Assembly (NCBI GenBank): GCA_009602725.1
Contig: WELB01000269.1
Location: forward strand, 61,292-92,784
Source of the DNA: Spirogloea muscicola
Lineage: Eukaryota; Streptophyta; Zygnematophyceae; Spirogloeales; Spirogloeaceae
Reading direction: 5' to 3'
Length of the DNA: 31,493 bases
The notes below the pieces were generated by a model, which had not been told where the DNA came from, ran no database searches, and saw only the letters and a program-made list of their open reading frames with translations. The translations under genes were made by a program, and so were the position numbers. Positions 3,550 to 30,853 of the stretch are shown here, piece by piece. Positions within the stretch are counted from its first letter, which is position 1, and each line of letters opens with the position of its first letter.

Positions 3550-4261
<712 letters not shown>

Positions 4262-4400
4262 GGCGCGACCCGCCGCTGGGCTAGGGTTCCACGGCCGCGG
4301 CTCGCCGGTAGGGGTTTAAGACCCGCGTTCTAGGGTTGGGGGCCTCCTTCTCAGGTTTATGAGCTCCGGTTGGGCTTGGGCTTGGGCCCTCCGATGCGCG
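4262..4400 (-). promoter_or_regulatory. RPL22 upstream region with telo-box motifs
   Basis: On the coding strand two AACCCTA boxes lie at 4331-4337 and 4282-4288, with a TTAAACCCC stretch (4312-4320) between them. The AAACCCTA telo-box is an established promoter element of plant ribosomal-protein genes. Here the boxes lie within 80 bases of the RPL22 start codon, so they may sit in the 5' leader or at the promoter. Function is inferred from position and motif only. Confidence 0.5.
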
Positions 4401-14222: not shown

Positions 14223-15138
14223 GAAGCGGCTTGCATTGCGGGCCTTCGATCTTCGGCAGGGACAGCACGGTGAGCTGCCCGGCTTCGACGCCCCATCGCT
14301 TGCCCTGGTATTCCGCATGCGGCTTTCCATTTCCTCCTAGCTTTCCCAGGCTCACACAGCGCATTTGCGGGCAGGCCGCGTTTTGGCTGCTACTTCTGGC
14401 TTGTGATGCCTCAGTTACAGCTGCAAGTGAAACCCAAACCACCTCGATCATTCTCCTGGGCTTGCTTTTCAGAGCCGTTGGCAGTCTTGGAGGCTGTATC
14501 ACCCTAGCTGTCTTGCTTGTGTAAAGTTTCTGGACTGACCCTCCTCATTCCCCGCCCCAGACAGCTACTTAGTGATGTTTGGCTAGGTGCTTTGCGTCTC
14601 AGTATCTTTGCTTCTAAGCTGCTCTCGATAAACCTGTGAACTAGCCCTATGTCCTTTGGGAGGATAGCCAACATCTGCTAGGACTCGCGCAAGAGTACTT
14701 GTACAGATCCCCGTTGTTATCGCTTTGTCAAGCCTCAGCTTGACAAGTTCCAACTTGCGTTGGAAACAATTCAACGAATAGCAAGTCACATCGGCCAGAG
14801 TTGGTGGCTTTAGTGGAAAAATGTCACAGGGCAATTGATGAGAAAGCGGGGCACTTTGCCTTGCAGGCCTCCACCTTGCTGGCGCTTTTGCCTAACCCAC
14901 AGCTATCCCGTCTACATGAGGGTATAAGAGGTGTCTGGTTCTGAATGCATTCTACCCTAAGTCCTACTCTTATTCTCGTCTCCCTTGTTGCTGGTTTCAG
15001 CAGTCGGGATGCTGGGTACTAGTTCCAATAGTCCATGTAATTGTTACCTATCTTCCTTTAGCTGATGGTCTAATTGAGAAGAAAACCGATGAGGACTACG
15101 CCACTTGAAGGGCGTCTGATCCATATTCTGCAGAAAGA
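14223..15138. other. Spacer without firm gene
   Basis: A minus-strand ORF at 14583-14834 (includes NCFQRKLELVKLRLDKAI) has no recognised motif and no splice partner. A partial tail-like string, GGGCTTGCTTTTCAGAGCC, lies near 14460. Nothing else was recognised. Confidence 0.45.
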
Positions 15139-15186
15139 AGCTTAGTGCACGTTATGCAGCAAAGCTGCATCTACGTGCACTAAGCT
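15139..15186. repeat. Two-tier perfect hairpin downstream of the G8 gene
   Basis: Outer arms AGCTTAGTGCACGT (15139-15152) and ACGTGCACTAAGCT (15173-15186) are a perfect 14-bp inverted repeat. Inside, ATGCAGC (15154-15160) pairs with GCTGCAT (15164-15170) around AAA. It starts 97 bases after the stop codon of the minus-strand gene, so it probably lies in its 3' untranslated region. Confidence 0.85.
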
Positions 15187-15283
15187 GCTGCATCCGTCTG
15201 TGTGAGAGTAAGCAGCGGCAGTAGCAATAGTACACTCGTGGCTTGCCAATTTGGCAGATGAAGCCACCACAGAACGGCTGAGC

Positions 15284-18200
15284 TCAAGTTCGCCGGGGAA
15301 GGCAGTTCGCACCTTCTCGTCGGCCAGCCAATTGCATGTCAAAGAAGAAGTCGGTCTTCTTCGGGAAGAAGAGGTGCGCCTCTACTGCGATGACATTGGC
15401 CCCATTCTTGACCCATGTCCCAGGTGTCAAAATTGTGTCCTGCCATGACCAGCTGCCCCAGAAGCTCGCCTGTGTCGCTGACGTGACGGGTGTGTCTGGC
15501 ATGTTGAGGCGAAATACCTCATTGCCGTTCACGTACACCACAGCACCATCATTGACGATGATGCTAGCAGTCAGCTCGAAGAAGCATGCCAGATCAGCAG
15601 CTGTTATGGTGGTCCGAAAACAGTAGGTCAATGCCTTGTTGGCATCATCTGCTCCAAATGAGACTTTCGTTTGTATTCCCCCATTTGAGCCAAAGCCAAA
15701 CATCCCGGAGCCTGTTTCACAACCAGCGAAAAGTATTCAGAGGCATAACAGTAAGGACGTGGACGGCAGACGACCTGGCAAGGTAGAGTGTGAAAGCCAG
15801 GGCAAGCTAACCAGTAAATAAATAGTAATAGTAAATAGTAAACAAAGCGAGTAAATAGTAAATAAATAGGACCATCTATACTTTTTACTAGTATAGATGG
15901 TCCAGTGTCGCGTTGCAGTGCAAGTTGAGGAGCAGAATTGAGACAGAAGCTAAGGAGCTGACCAGTCTTCCAATTGCTATCATCAAAGGTAACCGTAGTC
16001 CATGTGGCAGGCGCGACGGCACCTCCATCTAAGTACCTCCATGTAGACTGGCTCTGCACATCCAGGGATACTTGGATCTGAGATCACCAGGCCTATATCA
16101 AAATTGTCAAGCAGTTCAGGCAATAGGAGTCTTACACTCTTGTGTCAGCTTTGGAGTGCTGAAGTACCGGCAAAATATGGTTGAAAGAGGAAGGTACTCA
16201 CAGGTAGCAAAATCTTCGATGGAGCTGCCAGAATGCAAGCTTTCGGAGCGCCCGGTAGCGTTTGGCAGGAACCAAAGAGGTACTTTGAGAGCACTACATC
16301 CATGGCGGCATCTCCAGACCACAGGTAGTTCTGGTGCAGCTCTACCGCAATGTAATTGAGGCCAGCCTGCGGACGGCATATGCGGTCGATCCTATTTAGC
16401 CATACTATGCTACTGAGCTGTAGTGGACGTTCCTTCTATGTGTGCGAAGGCTCATATGTGACACTTGCCTGGCATGGAAAGCGCTAACTCAGTGCTCACC
16501 TTGAGGAGGGATGCCGTGCTTGGGCCACAGGTATCGCATGGATAGAAGGTGGTCTTCAAGTCAGAGTTCCAAGTTATCGATGTCGCGACGGTCTGAAAAG
16601 TGATCAAGCCACTTGGCATGTTGGTACGGAAGACCTCTTGCCCATTAACATACAGAACTGCTCCATCGTCCCTCCTCACTGCAGCCACTGCCACGTGACA
16701 ATCAAGTAAATGTGCATATGAGTATCAGAAAGATGGTGATGAGCATGCAAGGCAGTCAAAGGAAGGGGAAGAATGTGATGTTGCTAGTATGAAGGGTCAG
16801 AATTGAGGCTTACTCATGCTCTCAATCATAGGGAGGTCTGTTGCAGTGAGCGTGAAGGCCTTGACAAAGTAGGAAGTGATGAACTTCCCCTGAATGCTGC
16901 CAATTGGGGTCTGAAAGATGTCGCTTGCATTGTACGTGTCATAGCCCAGAGGAGCAGTGCCTGTTTTCCAACTTGCAATGCCTTGGCTGAAGAACAAGAA
17001 GGAGGCAATGTTCACAGTACTTTGTCAGCTTGTGTGCAATATTGCACAAGTAGTATTATGCGAGACTGAACAAGAAGCTCCTTCCTAAGGTCTCACAAGA
17101 TCTCGATCCTGCGAATGGACTACAAGCTGGCTACTTAGGCCAATGAAATGAGCGGATGACATTGACTCACCCCACTTTCCACTGGGGAAAGGCTGCAGTG
17201 GCATCTCCTCCAAGGTCGTAGTAAGACCAGCCAGCCGATCCGGCTGGGACGACTGGTATTGCTCTTACGTAGTCAGCAATAGGTTGACATTTGCCAGCAA
17301 AGCAGCCCTGCCCTGCGCCGCAGTTCAGGTTGCCAGGCCCATTGTCCACGTAACCATCACAATCATTGTCGATGCCGTCACAGCTGTGTGAAAATGGCAA
17401 ACAATTTGGCACAGATGAGTAGCTTGCCCTGGACACCATGTGCAGGACTTCATGAGGAGGCAGCTGCTCAGCGGGGCACACTGTACACATCATTACATCC
17501 AAACAAAAAATCACGTACATTTCTGCTGATGGCTGATGGACTGAGCATGTCGAATACGCCCCATTCACACATGTCTGGATGCCAGTACCGCACTGGTTTG
17601 AACATGGCTTGGTCAAGGGGTTTCCATTGGCATCCAAACATGTGGCAGCTTGTGACGTCAACCCGCAGGTGGCCCTGTCAGGAAATTATTGAGATATTGA
17701 GTGATATCCTGAAGACATCTGTTACAGGGGTTTCCAGTATGCAATGCAAACTTCTCCTCTCTCCAAGTCTTGTATATGCATTCAAGCTGGAAGATTTATA
17801 TGATAATCCAATTATGTTGGCCTGTTGCAGAGAATTGTAGGTCCTCACTGCTTGATAGCGGAGATGCGCATGTCAAAGGCCATCTCCCATGCGTAATTGA
17901 AAGCAGCATGGACTTCCACAGTGATAAGATTTATGCCCTCCCTTAAAGCATACGAGCTTGATGATCCCACAAGGTCGACGTGGAATGAGGTGTAGTTGAC
18001 ATTAGGATATTGGATGGGCTGTAGGTGAGACAGAGCCTGAAACAGTGAGGAGATATATACATCAGCCATACCCATACTGGTTAATGCTTAGGACGATTGC
18101 ATTGAATGCACATCAGAGTTGCTCTCCCAAGATCGCCAAGGCACCTGAGTGAGTGGCCGTATCTTTCCGAGTGGCATGTTGCTCCGCAGCACCTCGTCAC

Positions 18201-21200
18201 CGTTGAGGTATACCACAACTCCATCGTCCACAATGATATCAAGATCCAGGCCGCTGTAGCAGGCCACGCTGGTCAAATTGAAGGCTTGCTGAAAGTAGTA
18301 AGTGATGACGGAGGCCGTTGTTTTGGGGATGGTGGTGACCAGAAAGTTGTTCCCGTAACCAAAGATGCCCTGCCCAGATCCAAAGCCTCCCTGGAGTGCA
18401 TGTTGCCCCACTTTGGTGGCCGTCGTCTGTGCAAAGCTGGCAGGTACAATGCCTGCACTCCAGTCCCAGCCGGCTGATCCTGATGGAAGTATGCCACAAG
18501 AGCTGCCAAAGATAGGACAAGTCATGGGGAGAGCCTCAGCGATCCAGCAGCCCCGCCCTTTGTGACACACATCAATACTGCCAGGTTAATGTCCGGCAGT
18601 ATCACAGATACGGTGGTCACAATGATACAGCCACTTTACTAAGTGGCAGGTGACCACCATATGCCTGTAAGATCAATGTGTCCAGTCAAGAGCCTGTCTC
18701 TGCCAAGGTAATGCTGCAACAGCATGCAGCTCAAGGCAGGGTGCAGATGTAGACCTTGAGAGTGGGCAACTGCTGCTGCCTGCGACGAGGCTTAGTTGCA
18801 CAAGGTCCACAATGGAAGGTCCAAGAGATATCTCAATCTGCGCTGGCTGCCCGGCCTTGCAGAAATAGCTCACGGTGGTGAGCTTGGGGGCCATATTTGA
18901 CACTAGCCCAGTGCAAGGCCTGCAGGGGTCAGCATTCTGTTAGCGCAGGTCCATACTGTAGCTTTGGACATGTAGCAGCAGACATATACAAATTTCACTT
19001 TCATTACATGAGACAAGGGCCGCTTACTTGAACACGATCTGGTCTGTCGAGGAAAATGTCCACTGGTGAAAGGCGTCAGGTGGCGCTATGCGAATTTTGG
19101 CAATGCCACCGCAGCCTGCTCCATCCTTGAGGTTCACAGCGGCTGCTGCAGGGTAGAACTTGCCACTCGACTTGAACGCGACTAGGTAGGTGTACCCAGT
19201 CAGCAGGTTGGCAAAGAAGAACCGAGACGTGCTTGTCGCCCCTCCATAAGCGACATACTCAGCATTGAGATTACCATCGAGCACCGTGGTCATGCCATCC
19301 TCCACTCTGTCAAGATCATGGCAAACTCTTTAGGCAAGTGTGTGCATGCATGAAAAGCTTGTCGGAGCACAAGCAAGTTTCCCTCAACAGGCAATGATGG
19401 TCAGGCAATCGCAAGGTCCAAACAGGGGTGTGCTGCACGTCGACAACCTGTCTACTTACTAAGCTTCTCCTGTTGTTTAAGTTACACACCGCCCATTGCG
19501 ATCAGCCAAGAAATACATCAAGCATCACACTTGGCCAGCCACAGTCCAGGCCTTGTGGTGGTTTGCCAACCTGGTTATCTCCACCCAGCTGAAGTCGCCA
19601 TGCTTGCGAGCGCCCAACATCGTGGGGCCGAAGCCAGGCTCGTTATACTGGATGGCGACTGTGCGGTAACAAAGCTTTGGGCAGCTGTATGCGTTCCATG
19701 CAGCCTGCAGCGTGCACCCCTTAGCCGCCGGCGGCAGCATGGCAGGAGTGCGTGCAACGACATAGCCGGGCGCACCGACCAGGCAGCCGTCCAGGTCCCT
19801 GAGCGCGTACTGCAGCGAGATTTCGCCGCCATCCACAACAGGCATACCTGGGCTCCACGCTGCAATGCGCGGAACCATGTATACTGGGGTCGCATTCACG
19901 AAGCTCAGGCTCTGTACCCTGCATTGTCATGAGTTGAATAATCAGCGGCTAACAACCTTAGGATCCTGCAAAGTATCACTGAAGAGTATAACCGCCACAG
20001 TATGTTTGCACTCAGACATACAGTCTAAGAAGATGGCGAAAATGATTTAGTCTGTATGTACAGCTGCAGCTATTTTCCGGCACGAAGTTGTCCAAGAAAG
20101 GGCACATGCTCACCTCTGAGCCGCATTCCAGAAGTCAGCTGCGCCTGCGAGGCCGAGCGCGGCAGCCGGACGGCAGGTCGGGTCGTAATTGGCAAACGTG
20201 GACCCTTTGACGAGGTTGGGAAAGCCACCAGACTCGCTGCGGTTGCCCTGGTCCCACACGATGCCGAAGCTTGGCATCTTGTGGTGCCCGATAGACGACC
20301 TCGCCGGCGTTCCGCGCGACACCGGCAACGTGCAACCTGTGACCGGCCTGTGGCAGGGAGAAGAGAACCCAAGGTTATCCTCATGTATACCTTGCCTCGC
20401 TGCAGCTTTTCCTCAGTGAAAGATTTTATCAAGTAGATGGAGCATAGAGTCTGGGGCCAAGGGCTTACACGCAGGGGCCCCATTCGTCGGTGCGAAAGCA
20501 CTGTGCCGGATTGCCGTAGTTGGCGCTAAGGCCAACAAATCTGGACCTCTGCACTGTGATGCCCTCGTCCTGATTGAGGTAGATGCCCCAAGGGTTGTCA
20601 GAGAAGGTAAGGTCAGTCGCCGTTATGCCGTCACTGTTGTGAATGAACAGCCTGTAATGACATTTGCACGGAGAGAAAGCATGTGAGAAGGAGAAGATGT
20701 ATCATTGTTACACCCAATATACACTGCAGGCTCCTTGCGCGCCGCATGTTCAGATTCGGAAAACTGAATGTCATTGTATAGTCCTTTGCCATTCTGCAGC
20801 ATGCAGCTAGCCTGCCACATACCCTATCCACCCGTTCTTGAATGCTTGCAGGCGTGCGAAAACAGCGGACGCCGGAACCTGAACACGAATAGACAGTGCG
20901 TTTTAATGAATATGGTGAAGTCACTGACACAGCCCTCGGGAGAGGAGCAGGCTTTACAAATTATATGACATCCAAAACATGTTTGCCATTGACATCTGCA
21001 GTTGTATGGATGAATGTAGACTGGCACAAGACACTGCTTGCTCACCCCAGAGGGCAAACGTGGCCGCATGCCGTGGGGGTATGTGCGGAAGCCGGCAGTC
21101 CCATACGAGTGTGCAACATTGTCAGTGAAGATGCCCAGTGGGACGTTGAAGGGGACGACTGCATTGTTCCCGGGGAGGTCAGCCGAGATGCCGCGCACCG

Positions 21201-23740
21201 CCTCCCGCAGCTCAAACCAGAAGCTGCGCGCCCACGAGACCAATTGGTGTGGCGATGTTAGCCAGCTGTGCCCCCTGAGAGCATGAGGGAGGAAGAGGAG
21301 AGAGGAGGACAGATTGCGCACCCCGTGTCGTCGCCGCCACCAGCAAAATTCCCCACGAGAACGTTGTTGGGGTTGCTCATCCAGAACGTGGCCGGCCGGT
21401 CATCGGTCTCAGTCGACGGGCCGGGCGGCGACTCATTGGGGATCAGTGTTGCAACGGCGCGCGTTGCCAGTCCCAGGTTGCGCAGAAAGGCGTTGCCCGT
21501 CTCACCACCCTCCTCGGTGATGTAGCAGTGCCCCGCCGTGTCGTATGCCACGTTGTCTGACACAGTCACGTTTGCCGTCCCATGGATCACCACGCACCGC
21601 TGAGCAGGAGGGAGGGGTTTTCGGGTTAGAACATCGTCCTGCCACAAGGGACATGCCCCTCCTCTCCCTCCATCCTCTGTCCCTCCTCTCTCTGCCTTTC
21701 CCAACTCGCTCTATCTTGTACTACATTGCCCCTTTCATCACCCTACACCGCACACCTGGTAGCTTTGGTGGACGCTGTTGCGAGTTACAGTGGTGCCGCC
21801 AGCCTGGTTGCCGCACATGTGAATGTGAATGGGATAGCGGCCCAGCGTGCCCTGCTGCCCCATGTTTGTGAACTCCACTCCGTCAATGTACTGTGCCACG
21901 GTTGTGAAGAAGACCATGAAGTGGCCACCTGTGACATTGGGGGCAGGTCTCGGGCAGGTGTGTCAGGCTAGGGCAAAAGCATCCCTGCTTTGGTTGAGGC
22001 GGGTTTCATGTCTTAGCCACAAGGGGAAAGCTTATACACATGTTATGGTACGAATGCGGGGATGTGAGAGGTTGGAGAATAGTGGGGCTGTACACTCGCT
22101 TACCCACGAGATTGTTGGAGGGCGGCGCGGTGATGAGGATGTTCCGCGTCAGTAGCGCAACCTCGGCGCCCTGGTCCAGATTGCCGCCGGCACCGTCAGG
22201 CAGCAGTGCACCGCCCCAGTGCATGTAGGCGAGCGGCCGATCAAGGGCCACTACGCTGCCACCACTGGCGTTGCTCTGGACTGGCGATGGCAGGAAAGCA
22301 GGGGTGCTTTGTCAGCTCCTTACATGATGGAGGGTGAGAGCACGATGGAGGGCTGAGATGTTTGGGACTACGAGTTCCTGCCTGCCGTGATGACTGCGAC
22401 CTCGGCCTGCGTGTAGTCGTAGTCCGTCGATGCCACGACCACCTGGCCGCCCACTGGCCAGCCGGCTGCATTTGCCCGGACCGCAATCTGTTTCTCCCCG
22501 GGCGCCGCTGAGGCTGCCAGGCGCGTGAAGGTCGCCGTGGTGGCGCCCGCGGGCATGCCATGCAAGTGAACTCGGCCGCCCACCTGGGACTCAGAAGCGT
22601 TAGTGAATACCAGAAGCATGACGTAGACTGATTGAGCAAAGCAGTACAAGCAGAGAGGCAGTACACAGGATTTGGAACTTGAAAGTGGGAATGGGATGGC
22701 TGCTGTGCATACCACAGCAAGGACCTGGTAGCCAAGCTTCCGAGGGTTGGCGGCATCTGCAGGCGCGGCGCCCGAGAAGAGGTACTGGATGGGGCCGGCA
22801 GGGTTGGGCACAAGCGTGATGCGTGCGTTACTCTTGAAGTGCGCCGTCGGTGTGCCAATGGTCAGCTGGCCCTGGACGATGATGTAGCTCGCATTGAGAG
22901 CGATGACGGGCAGCGAGGGGCTGTCCAAGAACCTGTGGTGGAAAGGCGAGGAGGCGGCGAGGAGTGCGGCCAGAGGTCAGCAGTGAAGAGGGAGGAGCCC
23001 AATGAGAGTTGCAGCATGAGGGAGGTGAGACATGGGGCCAGAGATGGGGGCGCACTTGAGGAAGCCCTGAATGAGGAGCACCGTGAGGCTGACAGCGGGG
23101 ACGTCGAGGAGGATGGCCTTGCCGCACGGGATGGTGGCGTTGCCTCCGGCACGGGGGCCCACGCCCGGTACGCCGTCGCCGCCCCACGTTGCGGCGCTGC
23201 TCCACCTCATGAAGCCTGCAGCCGAGCGAGCACAGCAGGAAGGACAAGGACTGGAGGCAGTGAGGACGGGCTCATGGCATAATGTGGCATGTCCGTCATT
23301 ACATGGACTTTCTGAGCTCTGACACCCATTTCCGGTGCACCTGGTATGATATATGCCGGGTCTTGGGAAGTACTGCAGCGGCAGATTGACGCGCTCGCCA
23401 CATACCATCTTGCTCGAGCTGAGCTAGCACTCCAGAAGCATGCAGCTTACCGACAGTCCACAGCAGCAGTCGACACAAACACAGACTTGAGAAACACAAA
23501 CACAAAACAAACACAAGCACAGACACAGACACAGACAAAAACACAGACTGCAGTGTGGAGAGGGGACTCTGCGGGCCTCCAACAGCAGGAGGGCGCACCT
23601 CCTGGAGGCGGGTCAGGCTGGAAGGGGCACGGCGCGACGAAGACGTCGCCAGCCTTCTGGGGCGCCGCGGCGGCCTGCGCCAGCAGGACCGCCAGGAGGG
23701 CCGTGGCAGCCACAAGCGGCACCATCGGCCAGTCGGCCAT
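15284..23740 (-). CDS. Secreted G8 / beta-helix (CEMIP/TMEM2-like) protein with MopE motif and three galactose-binding-like repeats, 23 exons
   Basis: Exons (complement): 23599-23740, 23056-23215, 22713-22932, 22382-22583, 22104-22280, 21756-21928, 21322-21599, 21046-21265, 20823-20878, 20469-20651, 20114-20347, 19571-19918, 19028-19306, 18755-18919, 18145-18502, 17849-18036, 17519-17674, 17171-17383, 16814-16986, 16500-16687, 16202-16366, 15963-16077, 15284-15711. They total 4821 bases (1606 residues) with every phase in agreement. Residues 1-26 are a signal peptide. About 50-240 is a G8 domain (RWSSAATWGGDGVPGVG, STDYDYTQAEVAVITA). About 300-690 resembles the CEMIP/TMEM2 beta-helix (GRYPIHIHMCG at 330-340, AYDTAGHCYITEEGG, FWMSNPNNVLVGN). 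A linked region has RDLDGCLVGAPGYV. At 1181-1195 is a MopE motif, and at about 950-1125, 1215-1400 and 1430-1595 are three related domains. No membrane anchor is visible. CEMIP and TMEM2 act on hyaluronan in animals; the algal substrate is unknown. Confidence 0.88.
15869..15903. repeat. Perfect hairpin in the last intron of the G8 gene
   Basis: GGACCATCTATAC (15869-15881) and GTATAGATGGTCC (15891-15903) are a perfect 13-bp inverted repeat with loop TTTTTACTA. On its left lies an AT-rich array of AGTAAATA-type repeats (about 15810-15868), several units long and containing stop codons in all frames. Confidence 0.85.
17033..17048. repeat. 16-bp perfect palindrome in an intron of the G8 gene
   Basis: TGTGCAATATTGCACA is its own reverse complement. 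It lies in the intron 16987-17170. No function is assigned. Confidence 0.7.
17339..17383 (-). other. MopE-type metal-binding motif within the G8 protein
   Basis: Exon 18 begins by completing an Ile codon, giving EICDGIDNDCDGYVDNG. This is the signature of the MopE repeat (CDGxDNDCDGxxD) known from bacterial and some eukaryotic surface proteins, where Asp/Asn side chains bind calcium and MopE itself binds copper. The preceding exon is Cys-rich (CSNQCGTGIQTCVNGAYSTC), the usual companion of this motif in myxobacterial-type proteins. Confidence 0.8.
18612..18658. repeat. Two-tier hairpin in an intron of the G8 gene
   Basis: Outer arms GGTGGTCAC (18612-18620) and GTGACCACC (18650-18658) pair over 9 bp. 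Inner arms GCCACTT (18630-18636) and AAGTGGC (18641-18647) pair over 7 bp around the tetraloop TACT. It lies in the intron 18503-18754. Confidence 0.8.
23461..23551. repeat. Imperfect CA/ACACAG simple repeat in intron 1 of the G8 gene
   Basis: The stretch is built of ACACAA, ACACAG and ACAAAC units. On the transcribed strand it is a GT/CTGT-rich tract. It lies in the first and longest intron of this gene (23216-23598, 383 bases). Confidence 0.8.
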
Positions 23741-25747: not shown

Positions 25748-28742
25748 CTAGAAGGTGCCCAGCGTGGTGCGGAGGCGGTCAACTCCGGCGACAGTAATGT
25801 GCGTGAAAAAGTCCATCGGTGCCCAGAGCTCGCCACCGATGTACAATCGCTTGAGCGCCCGGCAGCCAGAGAGCCGCAGAAGGCCAGCATCAGAGATAAG
25901 GAGGTCATCAATTGCGTGGGGGTACCCATACGGGTCACTCTCGCACACAAATCCCAGCTGAATTTGCAAGACCATTCCAGCAGGCCATATTTAGTATTAG
26001 GCACATGCTTGCTTGAGCAATGCTTGGGACTATGGCGAAGGTACCAGTGTGACAAGTAATGGGCTAGGCTGACAAGAGCCCCTGCCCGCATTGGCGAGGA
26101 GTGACGATGTCTGACAACATTGGTTGGCGGCCATGCGGAAGCGGCCATTTGGAAGGACAGTGCCTCACCTCGAGCTCCTCAAGGACAGCTAAATGTTGCC
26201 CCAGGGATGCCAGGCCTTTATCGGTCACGCCGTAGTTGCACAGCATGCGCAGCACCTGCGTGGGCCGCCCGGCTCATCAAAATCGTGGGTGCTGCTATCC
26301 CTAGGAGCTCGGCCATAGACGATCGATGATATGCACAGACAACGGTATCCGCTTGGTGCAGCACAGGCACATGTAGCAGCTGAGACCTTGAGCAATGGAA
26401 GCGCCACGGCAATAATGCCCAGCGTGCCATCGTCAATGCTGCCGTGCCAGAGCTCCAAGGTCTCCAGCTCGGAGCAGCCCCTGGCGACGGCGTCAAAGGC
26501 TTCATTGGACAGCGCATATCCTCCAAGCAAGAGCCTGGACACATTAAGCATCCTAGGGGTGTGTGAGAATGAGGGAGGGGCTGGAGAGGCAACCCATGAA
26601 GGGAAGGGCTTGTATCTGGAATCAAGGGTTTAAGGAGGATCACAGTGGCTAATCATGTGGCCTCAGCAACTAGGTAGAGAGTTCATGAGATGGGGTGTAG
26701 GCATAAGTGACTAGCTTACTCAAGCTAAAACCTACACTCAAGAAAGACTCACCCAAAACGCAACTTGACCCAGCAACTTTATTATTGACATAGGAGGAGG
26801 TGCTGAGGTAGGAGCAAGGAGGGAGGAGAGTGAAGGAGGTGCGAGGAGGACAGTGGAGTCAACTGAAGGCCCCACGCACGAGCGAAGCTTGTGGTGACGG
26901 GCGAGGTCGGGCGCAAAGTGGCTGCCGTCGGGCTGCAGGAACATCGAGGTGGCAAACTCCTCGCGGCGACCGAGTGCAAGGTGCTCCAGCGGCCCCCGGG
27001 TGGCGCCCAGGAGCGCGCCGGCAATTGACGAGTCCCACGGCGACTGGCCCAGCGAGAAGGAGCGCAGACGCGGAAGCGCGCGTGCAAGCGAGGCAACGTT
27101 GTCTGCCCCAGGCACCGCGTCACCGCCGCTGTTGCCGCGCTTGCACAGTTGCCGGTTTTAGGCAGGTGCAGCCAGCTAAGCACCGGTTAGGAAGCATACA
27201 GCAGCCGGCAAGCAAGCGACAACTGCGAAGCATCCTTTGGGGCCGGAGGGGCATTGGGGGCCAAAAGGAGATAGACGCAGGCAGAGAGAGGCAACCAGCA
27301 ATGTGTGGGGGGAAGTTTAAGGTGGTTGTGGGGTGAGCAAGCAGAGGGAGGAAAGAAGAAATGGCGTCGGGCAGTGGAGGTTTGGGATTGAGGTTTAAGC
27401 TTGAAGCGATTTAGGATTGGGAGTTAGGGTTGGGTTCAGGGTTTAGGGTTTAAGGGATTACAATTTAGGGTGTGACAGGAGATTCATAGGTTGTCAATGG
27501 GTCGTCAAAAGGGGAGGAGAGTAAGGCTGAGTGACTGGAAGCAGGGGTAGCCATAAGGGGGGCGAGGAGAGAGGAAGAGAGAGCGCAGGGACAGAGCTTG
27601 GGCGCTGACCAGCCCTCGAGGTCCTGGAGGGCGAGCGCCTCGAGGCAATGCAGCTTGGCAATCGTGCGCAGCATAGCGGCGCTGGCGGGGCAGTCGCGGA
27701 GGTCGAGAGTGACAAGCCCCGGGCACGCGGAGGCCAGCGCCTCCAAGTCGGAGTCTGCCAGCACCAGCTGGGCGAGCGCGAGGTGCTGGAGGCTGGGGGA
27801 GGCGGCCAGGAGGGCGACGGCGCGCAGCGGCAGGCTCGGCAAGCCCCCTGGCGGGTCAGAGGTCCGCAGGCGCAGGTCGCGGATGGCAACGCTGCGCAGC
27901 TGGCCCTGCGCGCGTGCCAGAAGGTGCTCCAGCTTGGCAGTGCCGCGGCGGCCGTCGAGTCCGTCGGGGCCTGGCGCCAGCACCAGCGCTGCGCCCGAGG
28001 CGACCAGTGCCTGGCCGAGGAGGAGGGAAGCTTAGTGTGAACAGGAGAGTATGCGGCTCCTGATATTTGATAGAGCGGCTGTAAAAGCCAGCCAGGTGCA
28101 TACGGAGGGTGTTCATGACCATATTAGCGGAGCCACAGGCTAGGCAGACGGGGCGCTCTTACTAACCCCGTGTCAGCAATAGAAAGACTGATGAGCTGAG
28201 GGGAAAACTGAGCAGGAAGGAGGAGGGAGGTCTGGCGCCAGCCGGCAGGCAGCAGGGTGGCCGCACGAACCTTGACATCAACAAGTGCCTGGCTGCTGTA
28301 GTTGGTGTGGTGCTTGTGCCGGCCATGCACGTCGGACGGCACCACGAAAAGCTCCAGCTCCTGCCACAGCCGCGAGTCCGCCGCCAGCCGCCGCATCTGC
28401 AGCGCACCACAGCGGCGTCAGCATGCGATGGGACGATCAGAAGACTGACTATATGATGCAGATTGTGGCCGGATAGAGATGCAGGTCAGTGCGATCAAGA
28501 TCGCAAATGCGACTGTGAGTAAGATGAAGAGCAAGATCAAGGCTTAGGGTAAAGGTTTGGAGGACAGAGAGGGGGAAGGGCACCTCTCGGCTGGCCATGC
28601 CCAGGCGCGCGCGGTCGGCGTAGCACAGCCGCCGGAAGACCTCCAGCATCAGCGCGTCCGGCAGCATAGCGGCGCAGCGCGCGCCGCCGGCGCCTGCCGC
28701 CGTCGGCGGGGGCGCGCCGTCGCGCTGGCTCGGAGGCGCCAT
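25748..28742 (-). CDS. F-box / leucine-rich-repeat protein, 7 exons
   Basis: Exons (complement): 28584-28742, 28271-28396, 27610-28010, 26880-27128, 26387-26552, 26169-26255, 25748-25957. They give 465 residues with all phases matching. The N-terminal F-box (about residues 26-70) reads MLPDALMLEVFRRLCYADRA then LGMASREMRRLAADSRLWQE across the first intron. From about residue 100 imperfect leucine-rich repeats follow (LVTLDLRDCPASAAMLRTIA, LEALALQDLEG, LRSFSLG, ELETLELWHGSIDDGTLG, CRALKRLYIGG). Proteins of this class usually use the F-box to bind SKP1 in an SCF ubiquitin ligase and the repeats to choose the target. The substrate cannot be told from sequence. The ATG at 28742 is the first in frame. 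The acceptor of exon 4 (27128) was chosen by phase. The C-terminus at TGA 25748 follows a last partial repeat. Confidence 0.88.
27379..27472 (+). repeat. Degenerate telomere-like repeats in an F-box gene intron
   Basis: The plus strand carries variants of GGTTTAGGG: GGTTTAAG, GATTTAGGA, GTTAGGGTTGGG, GGGTTTAGGGTTTAAGGG and ATTTAGGG. They lie within the 481-base intron 27129-27609. It is probably an old interstitial telomeric tract. Confidence 0.7.
28041..28130. repeat. Dispersed repeat shared with 8936-8990 (in F-box gene intron)
   Basis: See the partner copy at 8936-8990. Here the unit lies within the intron 28011-28270 and contains an extra stretch with AAGCCAGCCAGG that resembles the family tail box. 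Confidence 0.65.
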
Positions 28743-29856: not shown

Positions 29857-30853
29857 TTACATCTCTGCCTTGGCCGTGATTTTCGCCGGCTTCTCAAGCT
29901 GCAGAAGAAAGCTCTTGCGGTCAAGGCCGCCGGCATAGCCTGTGAGCCCGCCCGACTTGCCGACCACGCGGTGGCACGGTATGATGATCGCGAGCGGATT
30001 CCGCCCATTGGCGGCGCCGACGGCGCGAGCGTGACCAGCGCTCAGGCCCATGAGCGTGCTCTGGGCTGCATACGACCGCGTCTCACCGTGCGGAATCTGC
30101 TGCAGCGCTTGCCACACCGCGAGCTGAAATGTTGTGCCCAGCGGCGCAAGCGGCAGGCTGAAGCGTTTCAGCGTGCCCTGGAAATAACTTTGAAGCTGCC
30201 TCCTTGCCTGCAGCAGGAGTTTAGCAGTGAGACAATGAGCTCATCAGGATCACCACAGAGTGCACAGCAGAAGTTGCTCCTTTGCATGCATGATACAGTA
30301 CATTCACTGGACACAGCAACTTTGAGATTTGTCCTGCAATTCTTCTGCAGAACTTGCTGGCACATGTCATTGCTCAAAGGCTGACAAGCCAGGGCGTAGA
30401 CAGCATAAGTTCATCTGTGACGCTGGAGTACCTCGGCGAGCAGCGGCTGGTCCGGGTTGTGGGGGAGCCCGGCGAGGGCGTCTGCCCGCGTCCCGTCGCC
30501 GTCCATGAGCACGGCGTGCAGGCCTGCCGGCGACGCCACGACCGTCAGCCGGCCCAATGGCGACGGGAATGCGTCGTACTCGCACCCGGGCACTTTGCTG
30601 GACAGGCACAGCTCGGCATGACGGAGGCTCAGCAACAGCTCAGCTCAGCTTCCTTCCCATGTCCGCTGCTTGACAAAGTTTCTCGGACTTGGCTCGATTG
30701 CTCGGCCGAGACTGCCGCAAGCAACGCACGCGGTCCTCACGATGTGATAGAAGGCGCTCACCGGAATGTCACAGCCCCTGCTGGCGCAGCCCGCGCCACC
30801 GGGGTCCGGGCCACGGCCACGGCCATCCTGACCTTGGGCGCCGGCGCCCTCAT
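29857..30853 (-). CDS. MGMT: O6-methylguanine-DNA methyltransferase (methylated-DNA--protein-cysteine methyltransferase), 3 exons
   Basis: Exons (complement): 30762-30853, 30432-30597, 29857-30207, in phase, giving 202 residues. The enzyme moves the alkyl group from O6-alkylguanine in DNA to its own cysteine and is used once. Seen: the N-terminal domain (YDAFPSPLGRLTVVASPAGL; LLAEARRQLQSYFQGTLKRF), FQLAVWQALQQIPHGETRSY, the helix-turn-helix recognition segment with the hinge Asn (AVGAANGRNPLAI), and the catalytic IPCHRVVGKSGGLTGYAGG with Cys164. The layout is that of bacterial Ogt and short eukaryotic MGMT. The first 31 residues are Ala/Val/Arg-rich without acidic residues and could be an organelle transit peptide. 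The ATG at 30853 is chosen because its exon ends CG|GTGAGC in the phase that exon 2 needs. The TAA stop lies inside a TGTAA string. Confidence 0.93.

Follow-up and report, generated by a model that had tools for sequence, protein, structure and literature searches.

Based on domain searches, a comparison of three genomic copies and searches for bacterial relatives, we propose that a gene of the streptophyte alga Spirogloea muscicola encodes a secreted beta-helix protein that acts on polysaccharides and ends in a carbohydrate-binding-like tail, a reading to which we assign a probability of about 0.55. The gene occupies 15284..23740 on the minus strand of the window, i.e. the whole analyzed stretch of 31,493 nucleotides (contig WELB01000269.1, positions 61,292 to 92,784, of the 153 Mb, 471-contig assembly GCA_009602725.1); positions below are those of the window, and all genes and domains named are on its minus strand. 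The 1582-residue product joins a core of about 930 residues, related to bacterial proteins and to TMEM2, to a tail of three homologous C-terminal domains (CTD1, CTD2 and CTD3) and a cysteine-rich linker with a MopE-type motif. The value of the finding lies in a core that appears to lack the lectin-like insert of TMEM2, carries strongly conserved helix residues and is joined to a bacterial-type tail. This join, the unusual feature of the protein, is seen only in this alga when compared with 78 bacterial loci bearing the core and 10 bacterial genomes bearing the CTD, and no description of the architecture came up in searches of an open-licence library.

Gene structure and evolutionary constraint

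Exon edges were settled by aligning the window with two syntenic near-copies, on contigs C74 and C149; a first model of 28 exons, some of them tiny or broken, was dropped after this three-copy comparison. The final model, resting on splice sites in the three copies, pN/pS (the ratio of nonsynonymous to synonymous differences per site), indels and codon positions, has 23 exons: 23740-23599, 23215-23056, 22932-22713, 22583-22372, 22264-22104 and 21928-21756 (exons 1-6), 21599-21322, 21223-21046, 20878-20823, 20651-20469, 20347-20114 and 19918-19571 (exons 7-12), 19306-19028, 18919-18755, 18502-18145, 18036-17849, 17674-17519 and 17383-17171 (exons 13-18), and 16986-16814, 16687-16500, 16366-16202, 16053-15963 and 15711-15284 (exons 19-23). 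All 22 introns are bounded by GT..AG in the window, C74 and C149 alike. The original prediction thus had the coordinates, the strand and the 23 exons in one frame right, as it did one large, probably secreted protein with a G8 domain, a CEMIP/TMEM2-type beta-helix, a MopE-type motif and three homologous domains; its length of 1606 residues is replaced by one 24 residues shorter, with some exon edges placed differently.

In long blocks, neighboring sequence included, C74 and C149 are about 83-91% identical to the window, with 94.4% identity across copies in the exons and 82-83% in the introns. The in-frame pN/pS is 0.15 (C74) and 0.17 (C149); the other two reading frames give 1.6-2.4, and in them the copies contain 38-51 stops. 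C74 has no indel in exons and 59 in introns, 45 of which are not multiples of three, and C149 has a single one-base indel in exons (exon 17) and 55 indels in introns. Exon differences at codon positions 1/2/3 number 46/39/183 in C74 (183 of 268 at the third position) and 46/37/184 in C149 (184 of 267), a bias far beyond chance, while the same three-position count in introns gives 209/186/215 and 182/181/238. The third position is ahead in 22 of the 23 exons, and the exception, exon 22, was retained since it encodes a sequence that agrees with the beginning of bacterial CTDs. The gene is real and evolutionarily constrained. We note that the extra base in exon 17 of C149 shifts the frame, and that the sequence downstream is still conserved in a coding-like manner, as would follow if the gene had broken recently or the assembly were wrong at this base.

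A core shared with TMEM2 and with secreted bacterial proteins

The protein is probably secreted, judging from an N-terminal hydrophobic stretch that forms a probable signal peptide (residues 1-26; 23663..23740). Its top 19-residue hydrophobic segments start at residues 6-7 (2.12), followed by one at residue 82 (2.03) inside G8, and the twelve highest-scoring segments are all away from the C-terminus. G8 spans residues 57-189 (exons 2-4; 22539..23189; Pfam PF10162, 5.3e-17, 62.3 bits, cut-off 22.9), and the CEMIP beta-helix (CEMIP_beta-hel) residues 298-494 (exons 5-8; 21088..22107; PF24606, 1.4e-62, 211.6 bits, cut-off 27.3). Failure of domain searches to find these two folds had been named in advance as refuting; both were found, above the Pfam cut-offs. 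The TMEM2 ectodomain (8c6i) matches algal residues 212-494 at 4.4e-43.

The helix is followed by region X, at about residues 632-926 (18766..20217), the putative counterpart of TMEM2 domain X. A bacterial profile matches residues 632-747 at 2.2e-9, and the likeness to TMEM2 was drawn through a bacterial model, whose alignment with 8c6i extends to chain residue 1156; residues 748-926 were assigned solely from the alignment of the core with bacterial proteins. The whole core, at about algal residues 31-930, is colinear with bacterial secreted proteins about 900 residues long, at 28-34% identity, and a structure model of one of these aligns to 8c6i over 745 residues. By record titles, the bacteria concerned are mostly Pseudomonadota, with some Acidobacteriota and one Gemmatimonadota. 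Hence, the earlier statement that G8 plus beta-helix is known from animals and protists was too narrow.

The 78 bacterial loci (L037-L114) hold 96 helix open reading frames (ORFs); in several bacteria, two or more core genes lie near each other, and genome G005 has four. Two metagenome-assembled records with the core, L046 and L107, are titled Bordetella parapertussis and Klebsiella pneumoniae, titles that may be misassigned.

Conserved helix residues and the apparent lack of the lectin-like insert

Conservation was scored over 68 sequences, i.e. 63 bacterial ORFs, the window, C74, C149, a paralog on contig C281 and the TMEM2 fragment, with the partial family member on C101 excluded. Of 283 helix positions, 57 are conserved in 95% or more of the sequences and in both TMEM2 and C281, among them the polar residues D228, E235, H260, R285, H301, E317, R329, H333, H335, H352, R357, H362, H380, E385, E389, N392 and H487 (codon at 21109-21111); the patterns used to fetch the sequences cover 355-363 and 385-392, so that part of the conservation in these stretches stems from the retrieval itself, whereas the other conserved residues lie outside them and TMEM2 was not retrieved by them. 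Eleven of these residues, H301, E317, R329, H333, H335, R357, H362, H380, E385, E389 and N392 (exons 6-7; 21492..21923), make up the proposed working face. By the secondary structure of the bacterial model, the positions matching H333/H335, R357/H362 and H380/E385 lie on or beside three successive strands, 23-26 residues apart; the conserved residues may form a single face of the helix.

In TMEM2, residues R265, D273 and D286 of a lectin-like insert (domain 1) are tied to hyaluronan breakdown, according to a study of the protein (PMC10206443). Here, 69 algal residues stand opposite 217 chain residues of 8c6i, with a weak upstream anchor of 0.8 bits, and the insert with its three residues appears to be absent. 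The best phmmer stretches against 8c6i also stop before the C-terminal lectin-like domain 2. As there seems to be no room for the insert, and as the purified TMEM2 ectodomain showed no detectable hyaluronidase activity in the same study (PMC10206443), the hyaluronan-type action raised in the original prediction is not implied: with the helix kept and the insert seemingly absent, the algal protein would be without the animal feature tied to hyaluronan handling. Homology of the core to TMEM2 would fit a genuine hyaluronidase, or a hyaluronan binder, of TMEM2/CEMIP type, yet we consider this very improbable given the apparent lack of the insert and the dispute over TMEM2's own activity (PMC10206443).

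A tail of three homologous domains and a MopE-type linker

CTD1 covers residues 930-1112 (exons 14-17; 17674..18756), CTD2 residues 1207-1387 (exons 18-21; 16271..17256) and CTD3 residues 1404-1574 (exons 21-23; 15311..16222). CTD3, which has matches in the alga's own genome and in bacteria, is homologous to CTD1 (BLASTP 4e-19, 31% identity) and to CTD2 (1e-16, 32%). Between CTD1 and CTD2 lies the cysteine-rich linker (residues 1113-1198; 17281..17673) with the MopE-type motif CDGIDNDCDGYVDN at 17341-17382; Pfam PF11617 scores 30.7 bits on the 86-residue linker and 24.4 on the whole protein, with a cut-off of 27. A MopE search of the alga's own genome gave no match, which reflects the sensitivity of the search, since the motif is present and the same search is positive in 7 of 10 bacterial genomes.

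The original prediction had pointed to a break near 17849, i.e. at intron 16 (17675..17848), as a sign of two transcripts. On such a reading, two genes or transcript forms, one with G8, helix, region X and CTD1 and the other with the MopE-type linker, CTD2 and CTD3, would meet here; in the window, an unspliced exon 16 indeed reads into a stop, and the C281 paralog carries G8, helix, region X and a single CTD, after which come a proline-rich stretch and no further CTD match in the sequence available. The stop after 17849 is, however, expected without splicing, because the phase-2 GTRA donor itself gives one. The splice sites of intron 16 (GT..CAG) are kept in all three copies, with lengths of 174 (window), 185 and 172 bases and a divergence like that of other introns, and translation from any in-frame ATG of this intron would end short of exon 17 in the window and C74, C149 having no such ATG. 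Moreover, the order helix end, region X, CTD1, MopE linker, CTD2, CTD3 recurs in the matches to a paralog on C1, whose upstream half would fall in a run of N. Taken together, the intron 16 evidence and the C1 paralog favor one gene and make a split at this point improbable; a form ending after CTD1 may occur in the family. The further member on C101 is cut by the contig start.

Both halves have bacterial parallels, the join has none in the loci and genomes compared

No ORF of the 78 core loci matched the CTD profile, built from the three algal domains only, or the MopE pattern, some of the loci stopping at contig ends. The CTD is found in one of seven bacterial genomes holding the core, and, across 247 genomes from the phylum to which this one belongs, in 10, this one included; the best bacterial match reaches 5.1e-36 and the others are weaker. 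In one locus (L116), a CTD lies N-terminal to a metallophosphoesterase resembling purple acid phosphatases, and very large bacterial ORFs carry CTDs in tandem, some with MopE-type motifs. Across 30 partly overlapping loci there are 32 ORFs with a CTD; nine of these, from two genomes, have such motifs, which are present in 7 of the 10 CTD genomes. The CEMIP helix occurs in two of these ten, at other genome places than the CTD.

These counts show that both halves of the algal protein have bacterial parallels and that the join is found in the alga only, where it is complete in the window and C74, continues in C149 up to the one-base shift and extends in C1 to the limit of the available sequence. 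What is unusual in the combination pointed out earlier is the union of core and tail and not the tail itself, as bacteria have ORFs with CTD and MopE and a CTD before a metallophosphoesterase. Viral contigs held no relatives of helix or CTD, and the algal tail was without match on plasmids; two plasmid records carry a bacterial CTD. In a tree of 37 rows, the four algal rows group together, while their place relative to TMEM2 and bacteria is unsettled and long branches meet. Horizontal transfer was considered and no claim is made for it, the tree not separating alga, TMEM2 and bacteria.

Genomic surroundings

The surroundings of the gene, at about 4.5-31.4 kb of the window, exist in three diverged copies and RuBisCO small subunit matches are found at four genome places; the genome thus looks triplicated or hybrid. 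These RuBisCO genes agree with a photosynthetic alga as the source. Directly 3' of the stop codon, an imperfect inverted repeat (about 15138-15200) is kept in all three copies. Neighboring genes encode ribosomal protein L22e (3830-4315; 1.4e-20), an O6-methylguanine-DNA methyltransferase-type domain (29857-30240; 1.3e-30) and a weak, below-cut-off leucine-rich-repeat match (27465-28031; 0.0013). At the window edge, 537 uninterrupted A residues (2-538) either arose in the assembly or are a genuine poly(A) stretch.

Proposed function

We propose that the protein could operate as follows. The first ~930 residues would fold into a right-handed beta-helix, G8 included, and then the beta-sandwich region X. 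This core would bind and chemically alter a polysaccharide of the wall, the sheath or the environment, by hydrolysis, elimination or epimerization, with H333, H335, R357, H362, H380, E385 and E389 as the candidate active helix face. The tail, i.e. CTD1, the MopE-type linker, CTD2 and CTD3, would keep the core attached to the substrate, and the MopE-type loop would serve as a disulfide-held spacer, perhaps binding metal. Secretion, catalysis, the active face, the substrate class, sugar binding by the CTDs and metal binding by the MopE-type loop are parts of this scheme that we infer.

Several observations weigh against this proposal. Searches of Pfam, NCBIfam and PDB sequences gave nothing significant for the CTDs, the weak matches being Laminin_G_3 (0.035), a CBM-like domain (0.11), BetaGal_ABD2 (0.2) and PDB 7kmm (0.049), which include sugar-binding beta-sandwiches; a structure model of exon 23 reached a pLDDT of 33 and was discarded as a guide to the CTD fold. 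The label 'galactose-binding-like' given to these domains earlier is accordingly tentative. No polysaccharide gene cluster was seen among the 10 neighboring ORFs at 5 of the 78 bacterial loci. Beta-helices are found in non-enzymatic rods too, and the structural matches of the bacterial model include tailspikes and adenovirus LH3 besides enzymes; those ranking after TMEM2 (epimerases, lyases, tailspikes and LH3) were regarded as a common fold and not taken as function. The partly built-in conservation noted above counts here as well. Finally, no activity is described for this type of core in the literature consulted, and for TMEM2 an active site could not be assigned, in addition to the inactivity of the purified ectodomain (PMC10206443).

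Alternatively, the protein may be a non-enzymatic component of the extracellular matrix or an adhesion protein, the helix serving as a rigid rod and the tail binding sugars or partner cells. The inactive TMEM2 ectodomain (PMC10206443), the rod-like beta-helix proteins among the structural matches and the tandem CTDs of very large bacterial ORFs, in our judgement reminiscent of adhesins, all agree with such a role. We nevertheless regard it as rather unlikely, as the near-invariant His, Glu and Arg residues of the helix, kept from bacteria to man, exceed the needs of a rod.

The polysaccharide-active reading can be extended, tentatively and with clear doubt, to an ancient polysaccharide enzyme with an insert-independent ladder of His, Glu and Arg on three neighboring coils (H333 and H335; R357 and H362; H380, E385 and E389), retained from bacteria to man, to which the alga would have added a bacterial-type MopE/CTD tail, yielding a wall or sheath remodeler outside hyaluronan biology. 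If so, TMEM2/CEMIP would be later, hyaluronan-directed offshoots, and the missing activity would best be sought in the algal and bacterial proteins. The G8/CEMIP family is poorly understood, with both the active site and the hyaluronidase activity of TMEM2 in dispute (PMC10206443), and the finding points to the ancient part likely doing the work: a core apparently without the insert, in bacteria and alga, sets the conserved, presumably working helix apart from what animals added. It also provides soluble proteins for testing and a short list of residues to mutate. The tail, in turn, links a domain family unnamed by the above sequence searches to a polysaccharide-type core.

Comparison with known systems

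Fibrocystin and PKHD1L1 share with the algal protein a G8 followed by parallel beta-helix repeats, but are membrane proteins of very large size that contain IPT and PA14 domains; they were compared by description, from a review (PMC13424714), which also mentions putative orthologues of their extracellular motifs in green algae. The bacterial G8/CEMIP-helix proteins of ~900 residues are colinear with the algal core and end after region X, whereas the algal protein continues for some 650 residues. Bacterial CTD proteins have the same domain as the algal tail, but no G8/CEMIP helix at the same place. With the TMEM2/CEMIP2 ectodomain (8c6i), the algal protein has the G8 domain and the CEMIP beta-helix in common, and it differs from it by its three CTDs, the MopE-type linker and the probable signal peptide.
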